DNA of 64,000 nt from Bacteroidota bacterium (GTDB lineage: Bacteria > Bacteroidota > JABWAT01): assembly GCA_023151185.1 (NCBI GenBank), contig JAKLJL010000003.1, positions 186,001 to 250,000 of the forward strand, read 5' to 3'. Made by a program: the position numbers and the translations under genes. Shown here in pieces: positions 10,586 through 63,996 of the stretch. Below the pieces are notes generated by a model. It searched no databases and had not been told where the DNA came from. It saw only the letters and a program-made list of their open reading frames with translations. How positions within the stretch are numbered: the first letter of the stretch is position 1; each line of letters starts with the position of its first letter.

Positions 10586-11779
10586 ATGACCCAGTTTCTC
10601 CCCAAATCCTACCGGCTTCACTCTTTTGTGCAACCCTATGACTGGGGAACACGGGACGAAAAGGCCTTTATCCCGGCATTTTTAGGTGAACAGCCTGAAC
10701 CGGGTGTTCCCTATGCCGAACTGTGGATTGGGGCCCACCCCAAACTGCCGTCAGTACTGCAGGATCTTAACCTGCCGCTGAATGAGGCAATCCGTCAGTT
10801 TCCAGAAGACATTCTGGGCCGGAAATCCATCGAGAAATTCGGTCAGGAGCTTCCCTTTCTGCTGAAAATTCTGTCGGCCGGCCAGGCCCTTTCCATTCAG
10901 CTTCATCCGGCGAAGCATCAGGCCGAACGGCTTCATCGAAAAGACCCGGTCAACTACCCGGATGCCAATCATAAACCCGAAATTGCCATCGCCCTCGATT
11001 CACTTGTGGCGCTTGCCGGATTTCAGGCCCCGGCAGAAATCGGGTCAGCATTGAGAAAATACAGGGAAATTGAGTTGTTCACCGGCCCGGTTCCAGATGG
11101 CCCGGCAGATGAAATTCTTATTAAACAGTTATACACCCGCCTGATGAAGCAGGATGGAAACCAGGCCCTCCTTGATTCGGTTCTTCCCCGGATTGCAGAG
11201 AAAATGTCGGCGTTGGCCGACCCGGCTCCGGCCGAATCCCAGTTTTTAAAACAGTACCGCCGGTATGGAAATGATATCGGATTGTTTTCCTTCTTTTTTC
11301 TGAATCTGGTCGAACTGAGGGCCGGACAGGCGGTTTTTACCGGACCGGGAGTTCCGCATGCTTATCTGGAAGGCAATATTGTGGAATGTATGGCCAATTC
11401 AGACAATGTCGTCCGGGCAGGGCTGACGCCAAAATTCAGGGACATTGAAACTCTTCTTGAAATCATTGAATTTTCCTTTGGCCGGTACCCGGTGTTCAAC
11501 ACCGGACAGGAGCAGGATCAGGTTAGATTCAGGACGGCGGCCGATGAGTTTGAGCTGATTCTGAATTCGAAACCTGCCGGTTACACCGCCGGGCTGAAAA
11601 CCGGCGGCAAACCGGTTATACTTCTGGTGACCGAAGGCCGACTGGCCATTGAATCCGCCGGGCAAACTGATCAGTTTAACCGGGGACAGGCAGTTCTTCT
11701 GCCGGCCTGCCTTGACATCTGCCAGGTATCTGCCCCCGTCGGCGCGGCCTGGTACTCTGTTACTGTTCCTGATCTGTAA
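10586..11779 (+). CDS. manA: Mannose-6-phosphate isomerase, class I
   Basis: A zinc enzyme interconverting mannose 6-phosphate and fructose 6-phosphate, supplying mannose units for polysaccharides. The 397-residue protein has the family landmarks: YDWG near the N-terminus, QLHP (zinc ligands Gln and His, about 105-108), HKPE (Glu ligand, about 129-132) and GVPHAYLEG (His ligand, about 264-272). The ATG at 10586 is chosen over an upstream TTG because the promoter at 10531-10562 lies inside that extension. It is followed after 29 bases by the GH30 gene, probably in one transcript. It may also feed mannose precursors to the polysaccharide locus, which is inference. Confidence 0.93.
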   Translation: MTQFLPKSYRLHSFVQPYDWGTRDEKAFIPAFLGEQPEPGVPYAELWIGAHPKLPSVLQDLNLPLNEAIRQFPEDILGRKSIEKFGQELPFLLKILSAGQALSIQLHPAKHQAERLHRKDPVNYPDANHKPEIAIALDSLVALAGFQAPAEIGSALRKYREIELFTGPVPDGPADEILIKQLYTRLMKQDGNQALLDSVLPRIAEKMSALADPAPAESQFLKQYRRYGNDIGLFSFFFLNLVELRAGQAVFTGPGVPHAYLEGNIVECMANSDNVVRAGLTPKFRDIETLLEIIEFSFGRYPVFNTGQEQDQVRFRTAADEFELILNSKPAGYTAGLKTGGKPVILLVTEGRLAIESAGQTDQFNRGQAVLLPACLDICQVSAPVGAAWYSVTVPDL

Positions 11780-11808
11780 TCCATTAACCCAATCCGAAAG
11801 GAAACTCC

Positions 11809-13269
11809 ATGACCTCCGTAACCCGCCTTGTACTTGCTGCCACCTTCCCGCTGGCTGCTTTTTCCTGTAAACCTCCCGAAAAACCGGCAGAAGGACCGGC
11901 AATTCCTGATTTTACCACTGCCGATGTCGTGGTAACCGCCAAGGAAACCGGACAAAAGCTGGCGTCTGCCGGCTCACAATCCTTTACCAGCCTTGCCCAG
12001 CCGGTAGAAAATGAACCGGCCATTCTGGTCGATCCGTCCCATCAGTTCCAGACTCTGGTCGGAATCGGTGGTGCGCTGACTGATGCATCTGCAGAAACGT
12101 ATTACAAACTGCCGAAAGAGAAACAGAAAGAACTGATCGAAGCCTACTTTTCCACGGATAAGGGAATCGGTTATTCTCTGGGCCGTACCCACATCAACTC
12201 CTGCGATTTTTCGAGCAGCAGTTATGCCTACACCGAAACAGACGGGGATACACTCCTGAAAAACTTCTCCATTGATCCTGACCGGAAATACCGCATCCCG
12301 CTGATTAAGGAAGCAATTGCCGCGGCAGGCGGGAAACTGACCCTGTTTGCCTCACCCTGGAGTCCGCCGGCCTGGATGAAATCGAACAAGGATATGCTTC
12401 ATGGCGGAAAGCTTCTGCCCGAATACCAGCAAGCCTGGGCAGATTACTACGTCAGATTTATGCAGGAATATCAAAAGGAAGGAATTCCATTCTGGGGCCT
12501 TACCGTCCAGAATGAACCGATGGCCACCCAAACCTGGGAATCCTGTATTTACACGGCTGAAGAAGAACGGGATTTCGTAAAAAACTACCTGGGACCTACT
12601 CTGGCAAAGTCAGAATTCAAAGATGCCAAACTGATCATCTGGGATCATAACCGTGGACTCATGGTTCAACGGGCAGCAACCGTGTATAACGATCCGGAAG
12701 CCTCGAAATACGTCTGGGGAACGGGTTTTCACTGGTATGTTGGCGATCATTTTGATAACGTCCAGCTTCATGCCGAAGCATTCCCGGATAAAAATCTGAT
12801 TTTCACGGAAGGATGCAATTACCCCTTCAATTATGACAGCCTTGCCAACTGGCACTGGGGTGAAAATTACGGAAAATCCCTCGTTAACGACCTGAATGCA
12901 GGAACGGCTGCCTGGACGGACTGGAATATTTTGCTGGATGAAACCGGCGGACCCAATCACGTGAATAATTTTTGCTATGCCCCGGTTATCGGGAATACTA
13001 AAACCGGTGAACTGGTCTATATGGCCTCCTATTACTACCTGGGTCATTTTTCCAAATTCATCCGGCCGGGTGCCAAACGGGTTCTCTGTTCCTCAAATGA
13101 TGATGAGCTTCAGGCAACGTCCTTCCTGAATCCGGACGGAACCCTGGCAACAGTGGTTTTAAACCTCACCGGCAAGCAGAAAGAGTTCAACGTCTGGATC
13201 AGCGGTAAAACGGTGAAAACAACCTCACCGGCACATTCCATCCTCACAGTTATCGCCAAGGCCAACTAA
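11809..13269 (+). CDS. GH30-family glycoside hydrolase lipoprotein (glucosylceramidase-like)
   Basis: The 486-residue protein starts with a lipoprotein signal (LAAFSC, Cys20) and then a TIM-barrel of glycoside hydrolase family 30. The acid/base is Glu236 in TVQNEPMA and the nucleophile Glu334 in IFTEGCN; SPWSPPAWMKSN is a further family motif. The C-terminal beta domain (about 405-486) ends the protein. Family members cleave beta-glucosyl or beta-xylosyl linkages by a retaining mechanism; the substrate is not predictable here. A good AAAGGA ribosome site precedes the ATG, 29 bases after manA. A strong terminator follows. Confidence 0.9.
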   Translation: MTSVTRLVLAATFPLAAFSCKPPEKPAEGPAIPDFTTADVVVTAKETGQKLASAGSQSFTSLAQPVENEPAILVDPSHQFQTLVGIGGALTDASAETYYKLPKEKQKELIEAYFSTDKGIGYSLGRTHINSCDFSSSSYAYTETDGDTLLKNFSIDPDRKYRIPLIKEAIAAAGGKLTLFASPWSPPAWMKSNKDMLHGGKLLPEYQQAWADYYVRFMQEYQKEGIPFWGLTVQNEPMATQTWESCIYTAEEERDFVKNYLGPTLAKSEFKDAKLIIWDHNRGLMVQRAATVYNDPEASKYVWGTGFHWYVGDHFDNVQLHAEAFPDKNLIFTEGCNYPFNYDSLANWHWGENYGKSLVNDLNAGTAAWTDWNILLDETGGPNHVNNFCYAPVIGNTKTGELVYMASYYYLGHFSKFIRPGAKRVLCSSNDDELQATSFLNPDGTLATVVLNLTGKQKEFNVWISGKTVKTTSPAHSILTVIAKAN

Positions 13270-61397: not shown

Positions 61398-61859
61398 TCA
61401 TTTAATCACTCCGTAGGCAATCAGGCGTGCATGGTCACGCTGTCCGATTGCTACGAAGAAAGGATCTCCGCCTTCGCCACTGTCTTTCAGTACCTGACTG
61501 TACCACTCGGGGTATTGAAGAATCTGACCTGCCAGATACGCTTTATACCGCATGGCCGCCGTCTCACCGCGTGTTCGCAACTGATCAATAACACCTGCCA
61601 GTGACTTGAAATTCATGTCAGGGTGCTTGATCTTTTCTCTGGCAATGATTTCCAGTGTGGACTCCACGATGGAAGTGTTGTCAGAAAGCAGATTTGACTT
61701 CATAACCGAATTCACATCAGGCCGCGTTGCTTTTGCTTTCGAAATTTGATTCAGTGCCGATTGTTCGGTTTCGGAATGGGCCAGATAACTGATCTGGGCC
61801 GGAGCAGATCCTGCAGCCAATGTTAAGGCTGTGGCAGCAAGAAAGAACATTCTTTTCAT
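61398..61859 (-). CDS. Small secreted protein, function unknown
   Basis: A 153-residue protein with a clean signal peptide (MKRMFFLAATALTLAAGSAPA). The mature part is mostly helical, with conserved-looking segments MRYKAYLAGQIL and YPEWYSQVLKDSGEG. A strong AAAGGAG site precedes the ATG. The family was not recognised. A possible TATACTTG -7 element (61926-61933, minus) lies upstream. Confidence 0.7.
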   Translation of the reverse strand: MKRMFFLAATALTLAAGSAPAQISYLAHSETEQSALNQISKAKATRPDVNSVMKSNLLSDNTSIVESTLEIIAREKIKHPDMNFKSLAGVIDQLRTRGETAAMRYKAYLAGQILQYPEWYSQVLKDSGEGGDPFFVAIGQRDHARLIAYGVIK

Positions 61860-62042: not shown

Positions 62043-62513
62043 ATGCATGAAGGTTTTATTTCCCGGCTGGCCGTAAGCCCGTTCCGGTTTAAGCTGTTTT
62101 TGCTCCGTTATTTGCCGATGGCCTTTCTTGCCGGACTTAAAATTGTGAGCTATTCTCCCGGAATGGCAGTTGTTTCGGTTCGGTATCGGTATCTGACCCA
62201 GAATCCCTTCCGGTCGGTCTACTTTGCCTGTCTGGCCATGGCGGCCGAGTTATCCTCCGGGCTTCTTGTCCTGGATTCAGCATCAAAAGGGCGGGTTTCT
62301 ACACTGGTTACGGGTCTGGAAGCCCGGTTTCTCAAGAAGGCAACCGGAGAAACTTATTTCACCTGCCCGGACGGTGACCGGATCCGGGCTGAAATCGGGA
62401 AAACCCTGCTGACCGGTAATCCTGTGACCTTTTCTGCCACTGCAACCGGTCTTGACCGGGAAGGAAATAAAATAGCAGAATTTACACTCCATTGGTCCTG
62501 CAAGAGGAAATGA
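62043..62513 (+). CDS. DUF4442-like hotdog-fold protein (putative thioesterase)
   Basis: A 156-residue protein. The ATG at 62043 has AAGGAG nine bases upstream; a TTG at 62022 overlaps that site. The helix plus strands with VVSVRYRYLTQNPFRSVYFACLAMAAELSSGLLVLDSA fits the DUF4442/PaaI-like hotdog fold, whose members are often acyl-CoA thioesterases. Catalytic residues are not certain. ATGA overlap with the ligase homolog. Confidence 0.65.
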   Translation: MHEGFISRLAVSPFRFKLFLLRYLPMAFLAGLKIVSYSPGMAVVSVRYRYLTQNPFRSVYFACLAMAAELSSGLLVLDSASKGRVSTLVTGLEARFLKKATGETYFTCPDGDRIRAEIGKTLLTGNPVTFSATATGLDREGNKIAEFTLHWSCKRK

Positions 62514-63958
62514 ACCCACCGGCTTTCCTCCGCCTTGCTGCAGAAGAGGTTCGGTTTCCCGGGCAATCGGATCTTGCTGCCTTCTTTTCGGGTGCCGACC
62601 CGGTTGAATCACTGGCCGCATTGATTTTCCTTTCGGGGAAAAAGACTAGACCACCGGTTACACCGTCAAAATTAAAAAACTATCTGTCCCGGATAACAGG
62701 ATACCCTTCCTGGCTGATTCAGGATTCTGCAGGACTGACTAAAAATCTGACCGAACTTGCCGCAGCTCTGACAACCGGACAATCGTCTCCCTCCGGAATA
62801 CCGGCACGGGAGATTTTTGCCTGGTTCTCTGGGGACCCGGGAAATGGAGCTCATTTTCCGGAAAGCCTGCTTGACCTGCTGTCCCGTGCAGACCGGATTG
62901 AACGGGAACTCCTTCTTGGTCTGCTGACTGGCCAGTTTGTCTCACCCTTTCAAAAACGGGACCTAATCCTTTCGTTCTGCCGGGTACATGGCTGCCATCC
63001 TTTCCCTGTAACCCGCAGGTTGTCCGGTTTTTCTTTCCGGGAAGATCCGGAAACTTTTCTGAAGCCTGAGGAACTTTCCGCCTCTCCCTTCCGGATTCCG
63101 TTCCCGGAATTCAGGGACGATTTTCCCATCACCCAACCCGGGGTTTCTGTAGAAGCTATCCCGGATGGAACCGAGAGCATGCTGCTTAGTACCGCAACAG
63201 AAATTCTGGCTGCAGACCGGGAGTTCATGGCAGTTGACCTGCCGGAAAAATCCGGTTATCCCCTATTTCCGGCTGATTCTGTTTTTACCGGCTGGAGTGT
63301 TCAGGACCGTCTGCCAAAAGGACCGGGTCGGAAATCCTGTGTGGTTCTTTCTGATTGCCTGATGTGGAAAGGGGAGTTGCTGGACCAGACTGAGTTTTCA
63401 GTCAGACGCCACCTGATTGAACAGATTTTGGAAAGTCAGCCCCCAACCGGAAATTTCAGTCTTTCGGAAGTCTATGAGGGGCTGACACCCGGGCAGGCCG
63501 GTGAGTTGATCCGCCAGCCGGAATTTAAGTCAGTATCCGGATTCAGAATCCGTGGGAAGACCGGATTTTCCGGCATTTTTCAAAAACCCGAAGGCGGGTA
63601 CTTTATTGCAGGTGCCCTGTATGTTCAAACCAGTGGATCTTCAGATCCGTCGGCTTATATTTGGACCGTGGGTGTCAGGCAGGGACAGACCTTCGTTCCT
63701 GCCGGGAAAGCCCATTTTCGTTTCAGCCCGGAAGAACAGGAGAGAGTAATCGGGTTTATCAAACTGAATACAGTTGAAAAAACCGGCCCGGTCCGGGTTT
63801 TAAAACCCGGATTGATTTTCGGGATGTTTTATGACCGTACCGTCCCTTCGACGAGGCATAAAGCAGGATTCAGACTGGAGGGGCTGAAAATAGTGGGTCT
63901 GTGCAGCGATAAAACCTGGGAGGAAATAACTGAAGCAGATCGGCTGAAACCGGTATAA
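62510..63958 (+). CDS. LigB-family ATP-dependent DNA ligase homolog, probably catalytically inactive
   Basis: A 482-residue protein aligning by eye with bacterial LigB/LigC-type ATP-dependent ligases: N-terminal DNA-binding domain (about 35-190; KLKNYLSRITGYPSWLIQDS), a degenerate adenylation domain (about 200-360), and an OB-fold (about 365-480; AGKAHFRFSPEEQERVIGFIKLNTVEKTGPVRV and TRHKAGFRLEGLKIVGL). Motif I KxDGxR is replaced: the only matching DG is in IPDGTE (217-222), so Lys is Ile and Arg is Glu. Motif IV EGxxxK reads SGFRIR and motif V is not recognisable. It may bind nicks without sealing. Its start overlaps the DUF4442 stop by ATGA. Confidence 0.7.
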   Translation: MNPPAFLRLAAEEVRFPGQSDLAAFFSGADPVESLAALIFLSGKKTRPPVTPSKLKNYLSRITGYPSWLIQDSAGLTKNLTELAAALTTGQSSPSGIPAREIFAWFSGDPGNGAHFPESLLDLLSRADRIERELLLGLLTGQFVSPFQKRDLILSFCRVHGCHPFPVTRRLSGFSFREDPETFLKPEELSASPFRIPFPEFRDDFPITQPGVSVEAIPDGTESMLLSTATEILAADREFMAVDLPEKSGYPLFPADSVFTGWSVQDRLPKGPGRKSCVVLSDCLMWKGELLDQTEFSVRRHLIEQILESQPPTGNFSLSEVYEGLTPGQAGELIRQPEFKSVSGFRIRGKTGFSGIFQKPEGGYFIAGALYVQTSGSSDPSAYIWTVGVRQGQTFVPAGKAHFRFSPEEQERVIGFIKLNTVEKTGPVRVLKPGLIFGMFYDRTVPSTRHKAGFRLEGLKIVGLCSDKTWEEITEADRLKPV

Positions 63959-63960
63959 AT

Positions 63961-63996
63961 AAAAAAGCCTCTGCACCTTACGGTACAGAGGCTTTC
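63961..63996 (+). terminator. Rho-independent terminator after the ligase homolog
   Basis: AAGCCTCTG and CAGAGGCTT form a stem of at least nine pairs (63965-63973 with 63986-63994) preceded by six A. The plus-strand T run is short (TTTC), so the downstream part, outside the window, may also be needed; the A run suits the opposite strand. Confidence 0.65.

Follow-up and report, generated by a model that had tools for sequence, protein, structure and literature searches.

Structure of the locus

Within the window (the whole stretch of 64,000 nucleotides that was analysed), positions 62510-63958 of the plus strand hold a gene for a 482-aa LigB/TIGR04120-like pseudo-ligase without the catalytic motifs, recognized by profile matches and motif alignments and found with the same decay in two further species. 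Directly upstream on the same strand lies a DUF4442 hotdog gene (62043-62513; PF14539, E 4e-8), and the two genes share four bases (ATGA), with the pseudo-ligase ATG at 62510 overlapping the hotdog stop codon TGA at 62511-62513. As the initial annotation held, the reading frame is whole and the gene is not an obvious pseudogene; the intact frame, together with homologs of the same architecture in two further assemblies, rules out a frame error or a fragment. A terminator had also been attributed to the gene, and a terminator-like hairpin with a 15-pair stem does follow it at 63963-63996 (a consensus match only), but judging by its T-run it would more readily end transcription on the minus strand than on the plus strand. 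Beside the hotdog/pseudo-ligase pair, the minus strand (61398-61859) encodes a protein of 153 aa whose start resembles a signal peptide and which recurs at this place in all three genomes of the genus with 58-92% identity.

Similarity to LigB-type DNA ligases

Searches against NCBIfam matched the protein to NF006701/PRK09247 (3.7e-21) and TIGR04120 (3.2e-19), at bit scores far under both curated cut-offs (69 against 400 bits for TIGR04120, 76 against 543 bits for PRK09247). Judged by these matches, it is a relative by descent of LigB-type ATP-dependent DNA ligases, with similarity beyond chance. Hidden Markov models built from live ligases, with E values given for a million sequences, resolved its parts unequally. 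The DNA-binding-domain (DBD) region (residues ~1-195; 62510-63094, plus strand) is much diverged, with an E value of 1.6e-3 over residues 22-89, and is all-helical in a predicted model; the nucleotidyltransferase-domain region (residues ~196-364; 63095-63601, plus strand) is decayed, gave no significant match and was placed by motif alignment. The OB-fold domain (residues ~365-482; 63602-63955, plus strand) is the best conserved part (E 3e-11), carries GPVR...STRHKAG and contains the best NCBIfam stretch (384-479). Of the good similarity initially claimed for both ends, the OB-fold half therefore held, whereas the N-terminal half is weak in the window protein, though strong in its genus relatives (6e-26 and 7e-34).

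The predicted model of the window protein (pLDDT 77, pTM 0.67) shows similarity to ligases of archaea and humans (Foldseek E 1.6e-22) and retains the motif I beta-hairpin, as a consistency check only, since its input alignment contained true ligases. The model for the G001 protein, from one of the other two genomes of the genus, is similar (pLDDT 80, Foldseek E 1.4e-28); a PDB sequence search with the window protein returned only weak matches, to the OB region. Profile matches, end-to-end matches in the genus relatives and the model with ligases in its alignment agree on the DBD-nucleotidyltransferase-OB architecture of the TIGR04120/PRK09247 family, and the three-domain LigB-type layout first read from the sequence is thus confirmed, as is significant similarity to ligases in profile search.

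Loss of the catalytic motifs

Alignment with canonical Bacteroidota ligases placed I217-P-D-G-T-E222 (63158-63175, plus strand) at motif I, a position also marked by the hairpin of the model, where KxDGxR is expected and KWDGIR is canonical in Bacteroidota; I217 thus takes the place of the nucleotidyl lysine of TIGR04120/PRK09247 ligases, and the alignments gave no lysine substituting for it in the hairpin. At motif IV, SGFRIR (63536-63553, plus strand, starting at S343) replaces EGLMLK. The catalytic glutamate of motif II (LDGE) and motif Ia (SRG) are gone, motif V (WWKWK) is missing with the loop before it, and motif VI has changed from RFPR to EGLK with loss of its arginines. The protein therefore lacks the glutamates of motifs II and IV, the lysines of IV and V and the arginine of VI; over the scored catalytic positions it has IDE-ARFKE or no equivalent, motif V being absent. 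The earlier readings of motifs I, IV and V were accordingly all correct. Canonical basic residues of the GRR loop, of RFPR and of the FRxG turn have also disappeared, which cautions against crediting the protein with the nick recognition of a true ligase. The best explanation of these replacements is that the window gene encodes a LigB-type ligase that would no longer adenylate or seal DNA.

Conservation and gene content in the genus

The class is represented in our collection by four genomes, three from the window genus (G000, which contains the window, G001 and G002) and one, G003, from a second, sister genus. In both G001 and G002 the gene occupies this locus as well, again overlapping the hotdog gene and lying between the same flanks. 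Both copies match TIGR04120 over the full length, yet are degenerate: motifs II, V and VI are gone, and motif I reads EWKPSGHE in G001 and EWKLSGKE in G002, with the lysine kept and the aspartate and arginine lost. Absence of the nucleotidyl lysine, as first proposed, is thus a property of the window copy but not of its genus relatives, while retention of a ligase-fold protein after loss of catalytic motifs proved to be genus-wide and not a pseudogene of one assembly. The decay would either predate the separation of the three species or have run in parallel. In G001, two nearly identical hexapeptide-type acyltransferase genes (L018:10158-10688 and 11638-12177) flank a methyltransferase gene.

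TIGR04120 and PF01068 searches of the window genome found no second ATP-dependent ligase-like gene, which removes an intact copy elsewhere in the genome as a candidate; LigA is present there, as in all 10 of the genomes tested. The genome also encodes a ligase-associated exonuclease (TIGR04122; G000:C4:22777-23736, 414 bits against a 325-bit cut-off), unlinked to the pseudo-ligase. Neither the Lhr-type helicase (TIGR04121) nor the MPE nuclease (TIGR04123) reached its cut-off in G000, G001, G002 or G003, and in G003 neither a ligase gene nor an exonuclease was found.

Dead and trimmed ligases across Bacteroidota

We surveyed 393 Bacteroidota genomes, many of them probably metagenome-assembled, and read motifs in a sample of the over-cut-off ligases, scoring nine catalytic residues; "dead" here is judged from residues. 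The ligases read in this way split sharply into a majority with all nine residues and a minority without many of them. Dead or trimmed ligases occurred in at least four families besides that of the window genus (f1). Dead full-length forms comprise those of f1; G302 in f32 (motif I FGSGLR); G100 (EWLVEGSR) and G104 (EHTYDGRR) in f17; and G226 (ENFSGLR), G389 (EKFNGLR) and G392 (EEFAGLR) in f16. Two ligases of f46, G271 (L087:6256-7878) and G384 (L098:2847-4418), are equivocal, keeping KWDGxR at motif I but having lysine or arginine in place of the glutamate of motif IV and lacking motif V; they are possibly half-dead, and that of G271 sits in a complete Exo-Lig-Lhr-MPE cluster. The ligase of G080 (L115:1764-3509), in a genus with three dead relatives, is otherwise canonical with asparagine for the motif I aspartate (EEKFNGMR).

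Trimmed forms go further. In f56, G376 encodes a 403-aa protein with the DBD joined to the OB-fold and the nucleotidyltransferase domain deleted, its gene overlapping that of the exonuclease, while another member of the family, G386, has a live ligase. Family f17 offers the most complete series, with, besides its dead full-length forms, a live ligase accompanied by exonuclease, Lhr and MPE (G394), DBD-OB proteins of ~238-311 aa beside the exonuclease (G393, G399, G401 and G405), and exonucleases fused to an OB-fold (G085, G395, G231, G363 and G396), some with a recognizable DBD fragment; the fusion in G396 still adjoins Lhr and MPE. In HMM searches the OB-folds of trimmed and fused forms scored from E 1e-4 (G393) to 1e-15, compared with under 5 bits for non-ligase open reading frames in a sampled background listing, and the two fusions tested with NCBIfam combined a full TIGR04122 match with a match to the C-terminal end of the ligase models. 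A basic signature in the OB-fold, R-[HKRT]-K-[SA]-G following a GP(V/T/I) turn, recurs in nearly every dead or trimmed form.

A single origin of the dead ligases was ruled out on the exonuclease tree, where exonucleases partnered with dead or trimmed ligases are not monophyletic (p-AU 0.0004) and the f16 trio sits inside a group of live relatives (SH-aLRT 97). Assuming that a lost activity never returns and that no lineage reacquired a live ligase by transfer, catalysis would have been lost at least five times (f1, f17, f32, f16 and f56), leaving f46 aside. Natural LigB ligases predicted from sequence to be dead, and DBD-OB or exonuclease-OB proteins that lack the catalytic domain, are apparently new; our search, which covered the open-access literature and left most subscription papers outside, found no earlier report of such natural pseudo-DNA-ligases.

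Association with the exonuclease

A ligase or ligase derivative was present in 128 of the 130 exonuclease-bearing genomes, and an exonuclease in 128 of the 129 with a ligase or derivative (p 5e-101, ignoring shared ancestry). The exonuclease occurs in every one of the 15 genomes whose ligase is dead, trimmed or equivocal (shared ancestry uncorrected), and its H-x-H-x-D-H metal-binding motif is intact in dead-ligase genomes. The exonuclease is unlinked to the ligase gene in the window genus and in G302 and adjacent or fused elsewhere, including the dead or equivocal ligases that adjoin it in f16, f17 and f46. Loss of Lhr and MPE was considered as a general cause and ruled out, since both persist beside the exonuclease-OB fusion of G396 and the full set of four genes is present in G271.

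Two further observations concern the exonuclease itself. Genomes of f2 have a second exonuclease of the TIGR04122 kind, under the cut-off at 250-290 bits and away from the ligase (for example, G079:C6:191169-192065), and G098 has only such a one. For the exonucleases of G207 and G404 (L096:6143-7174 and L155:4937-6043), no ligase-like gene was detected near, a possible end point of the series.

Selection and evolutionary rate

Between G001 and G002, the pseudo-ligase differs at.39,.29 and.58 of first, second and third codon positions, a third-position excess, and its dN/dS is 0.25, alike in all three domains. Neutral simulation at the same depth always produced at least 11 stops, and at a quarter of that depth always at least 4. 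Constraint on the gene is thus real but loose, in the form of purifying selection. Purifying selection also acts on trimmed forms, with dN/dS of 0.15 for the pair G399-G401 and, at unsaturated dS, of 0.26 for the OB part of the G085 and G395 fusions. The looseness is apparent in sequence identity, which between G001 and G002 is 51% for the pseudo-ligase, 91% for the hotdog protein and 94% for the exonuclease; the window copy is only 27-29% identical to its genus relatives, compared with 54-90% in neighbouring genes, and dN/dS is above that of the neighbouring genes. In the same two genomes, dS is 1.88 for the pseudo-ligase (L018:7291-8877 against L019:7229-8806) against 0.46 and 0.47 for the hotdog and exonuclease genes, a difference that may reflect allele replacement or unusually fast evolution.

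Alternative explanations

Such rapid divergence, with dN/dS above that of the neighbours, is what might be seen if ligase function had simply been lost in this lineage and the gene were decaying with its frame not yet broken. The frame is nevertheless intact in three species despite the stops that arose in every neutral run even at quarter depth, the codon-position pattern and dN/dS of about 0.25 are those of a constrained protein, and trimmed and fused forms elsewhere are under purifying selection too, so we regard decay as improbable. Continued enzymatic activity, by residual or altered nucleotidyl transfer through another residue or cofactor, might be read into the motif I lysine of G001 and G002 and the KWDGxR of G271 and G384; against it, the other ATP- and metal-binding motifs have been lost, including both motif V lysines, the loop before motif V is shortened, and in relatives from other families the whole domain is deleted. 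An active enzyme is therefore very hard to credit.

A new role specific to the genus, tied to the overlapping DUF4442 hotdog protein and apart from the exonuclease, would account for the ATGA overlap in three species and for an exonuclease that is unlinked in the genus. The coupling to a hotdog protein that the initial annotation mentioned is real in that start and stop overlap in all three species, but it is not supported as the defining feature of these proteins; most other dead ligases adjoin the ligase-associated exonuclease or form one chain with it. Of the ligase loci examined, those of the window genus alone showed a hotdog neighbour; none was found at the other loci searched, dead-ligase loci included, and the hotdog protein was accordingly rejected as a general partner. 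Overlaps of this kind are also common in bacterial operons, and the hotdog protein is far more conserved than the pseudo-ligase, so a hotdog-specific role seems fairly unlikely.

Proposed role of the pseudo-ligase

Dead and trimmed ligases recur and, in the surveyed genomes, are always accompanied by the partner exonuclease, which suggests a second, non-sealing job of the ligase. Taken jointly with the predicted loss of adenylation and sealing, we consider it moderately probable that the pseudo-ligase serves the TIGR04122 exonuclease as DNA clamp or adaptor without catalysis of its own, with the DBD and OB-fold kept by selection and sealing left to LigA. By analogy with other families, which supply most of the evidence from fusion, gene neighbourhood and co-occurrence, the window protein would bind DNA, contact the exonuclease and position or regulate it. 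The DBD and OB-fold of the ligase would bind the exonuclease itself, or hold DNA for it or present DNA to it; where ligation by the LigB-type enzyme became dispensable, LigA being present in all 10 genomes tested, the catalytic domain would decay and later disappear; and the remaining part could fuse to the exonuclease. For the wider proposition, we see an even chance that the ligase of the Exo-Lig-Lhr-MPE cluster has an ancestral second function as a DNA clamp for the exonuclease, of such importance that the pathway proceeds without ligation, with catalysis lost independently at least five times, the domain deleted in at least two lineages, and the window genus representing the dead full-length stage.

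Several points weigh against the clamp or adaptor role. In the window genus and in G302, where the exonuclease is unlinked, the partnership rests on analogy and co-occurrence, and the co-occurrence may be inherited from an ancestral operon. Basic residues of the DNA-contacting kind have been lost and the DBD of the window protein is barely recognizable. The much higher rate of evolution of the pseudo-ligase compared with the exonuclease and hotdog protein also fits relaxed constraint, and a different role may be signalled by the overlap with the hotdog gene.

Comparison with known systems and implications

LigB-type ATP-dependent DNA ligases (TIGR04120/PRK09247) are described as part of the Exo-Lig-Lhr-MPE repair cluster (Ejaz and Shuman 2018, as cited in PMC10140301). 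The pseudo-ligases resemble them in architecture, in the end-to-end profile match of the genus relatives and in the presence of the exonuclease in the genome, but differ in that the window copy lacks the nucleotidyl lysine and other motifs, the exonuclease is unlinked, and no Lhr or MPE exceeds its cut-off in the genus. Exonuclease-LigB fusions are known from Opitutus terrae and from Antarctic Dry Valley proteins, the ligase module of the latter being active (PMC10140301). The f17 fusions join the same two partners in one chain with the exonuclease N-terminal, but lack the nucleotidyltransferase domain, unlike the known fusions with their full ligase. A precedent for the proposal comes from human DNA ligase IV, whose DBD contacts Artemis, an MBL-family nuclease (PMC3664939), and which in an engineered inactive form aids repair without catalysis (PMC9638927): ligase DBD-nuclease contact and non-catalytic help are features in common, although natural Lig4 is active, its dead form is engineered, and it works in end joining with XRCC4 and not in a bacterial cluster.

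A gene annotated by profile as "DNA ligase" does not necessarily encode a ligase. The Exo-Lig-Lhr-MPE cluster is widespread in bacteria and its role has been described as unknown (PMC10140301); lineages that lack ligase catalysis or the catalytic domain, yet have the DBD, OB-fold and exonuclease, indicate which portion of the ligase is indispensable to the pathway. The same lineages suggest a direct ligase-exonuclease partnership that is open to testing.
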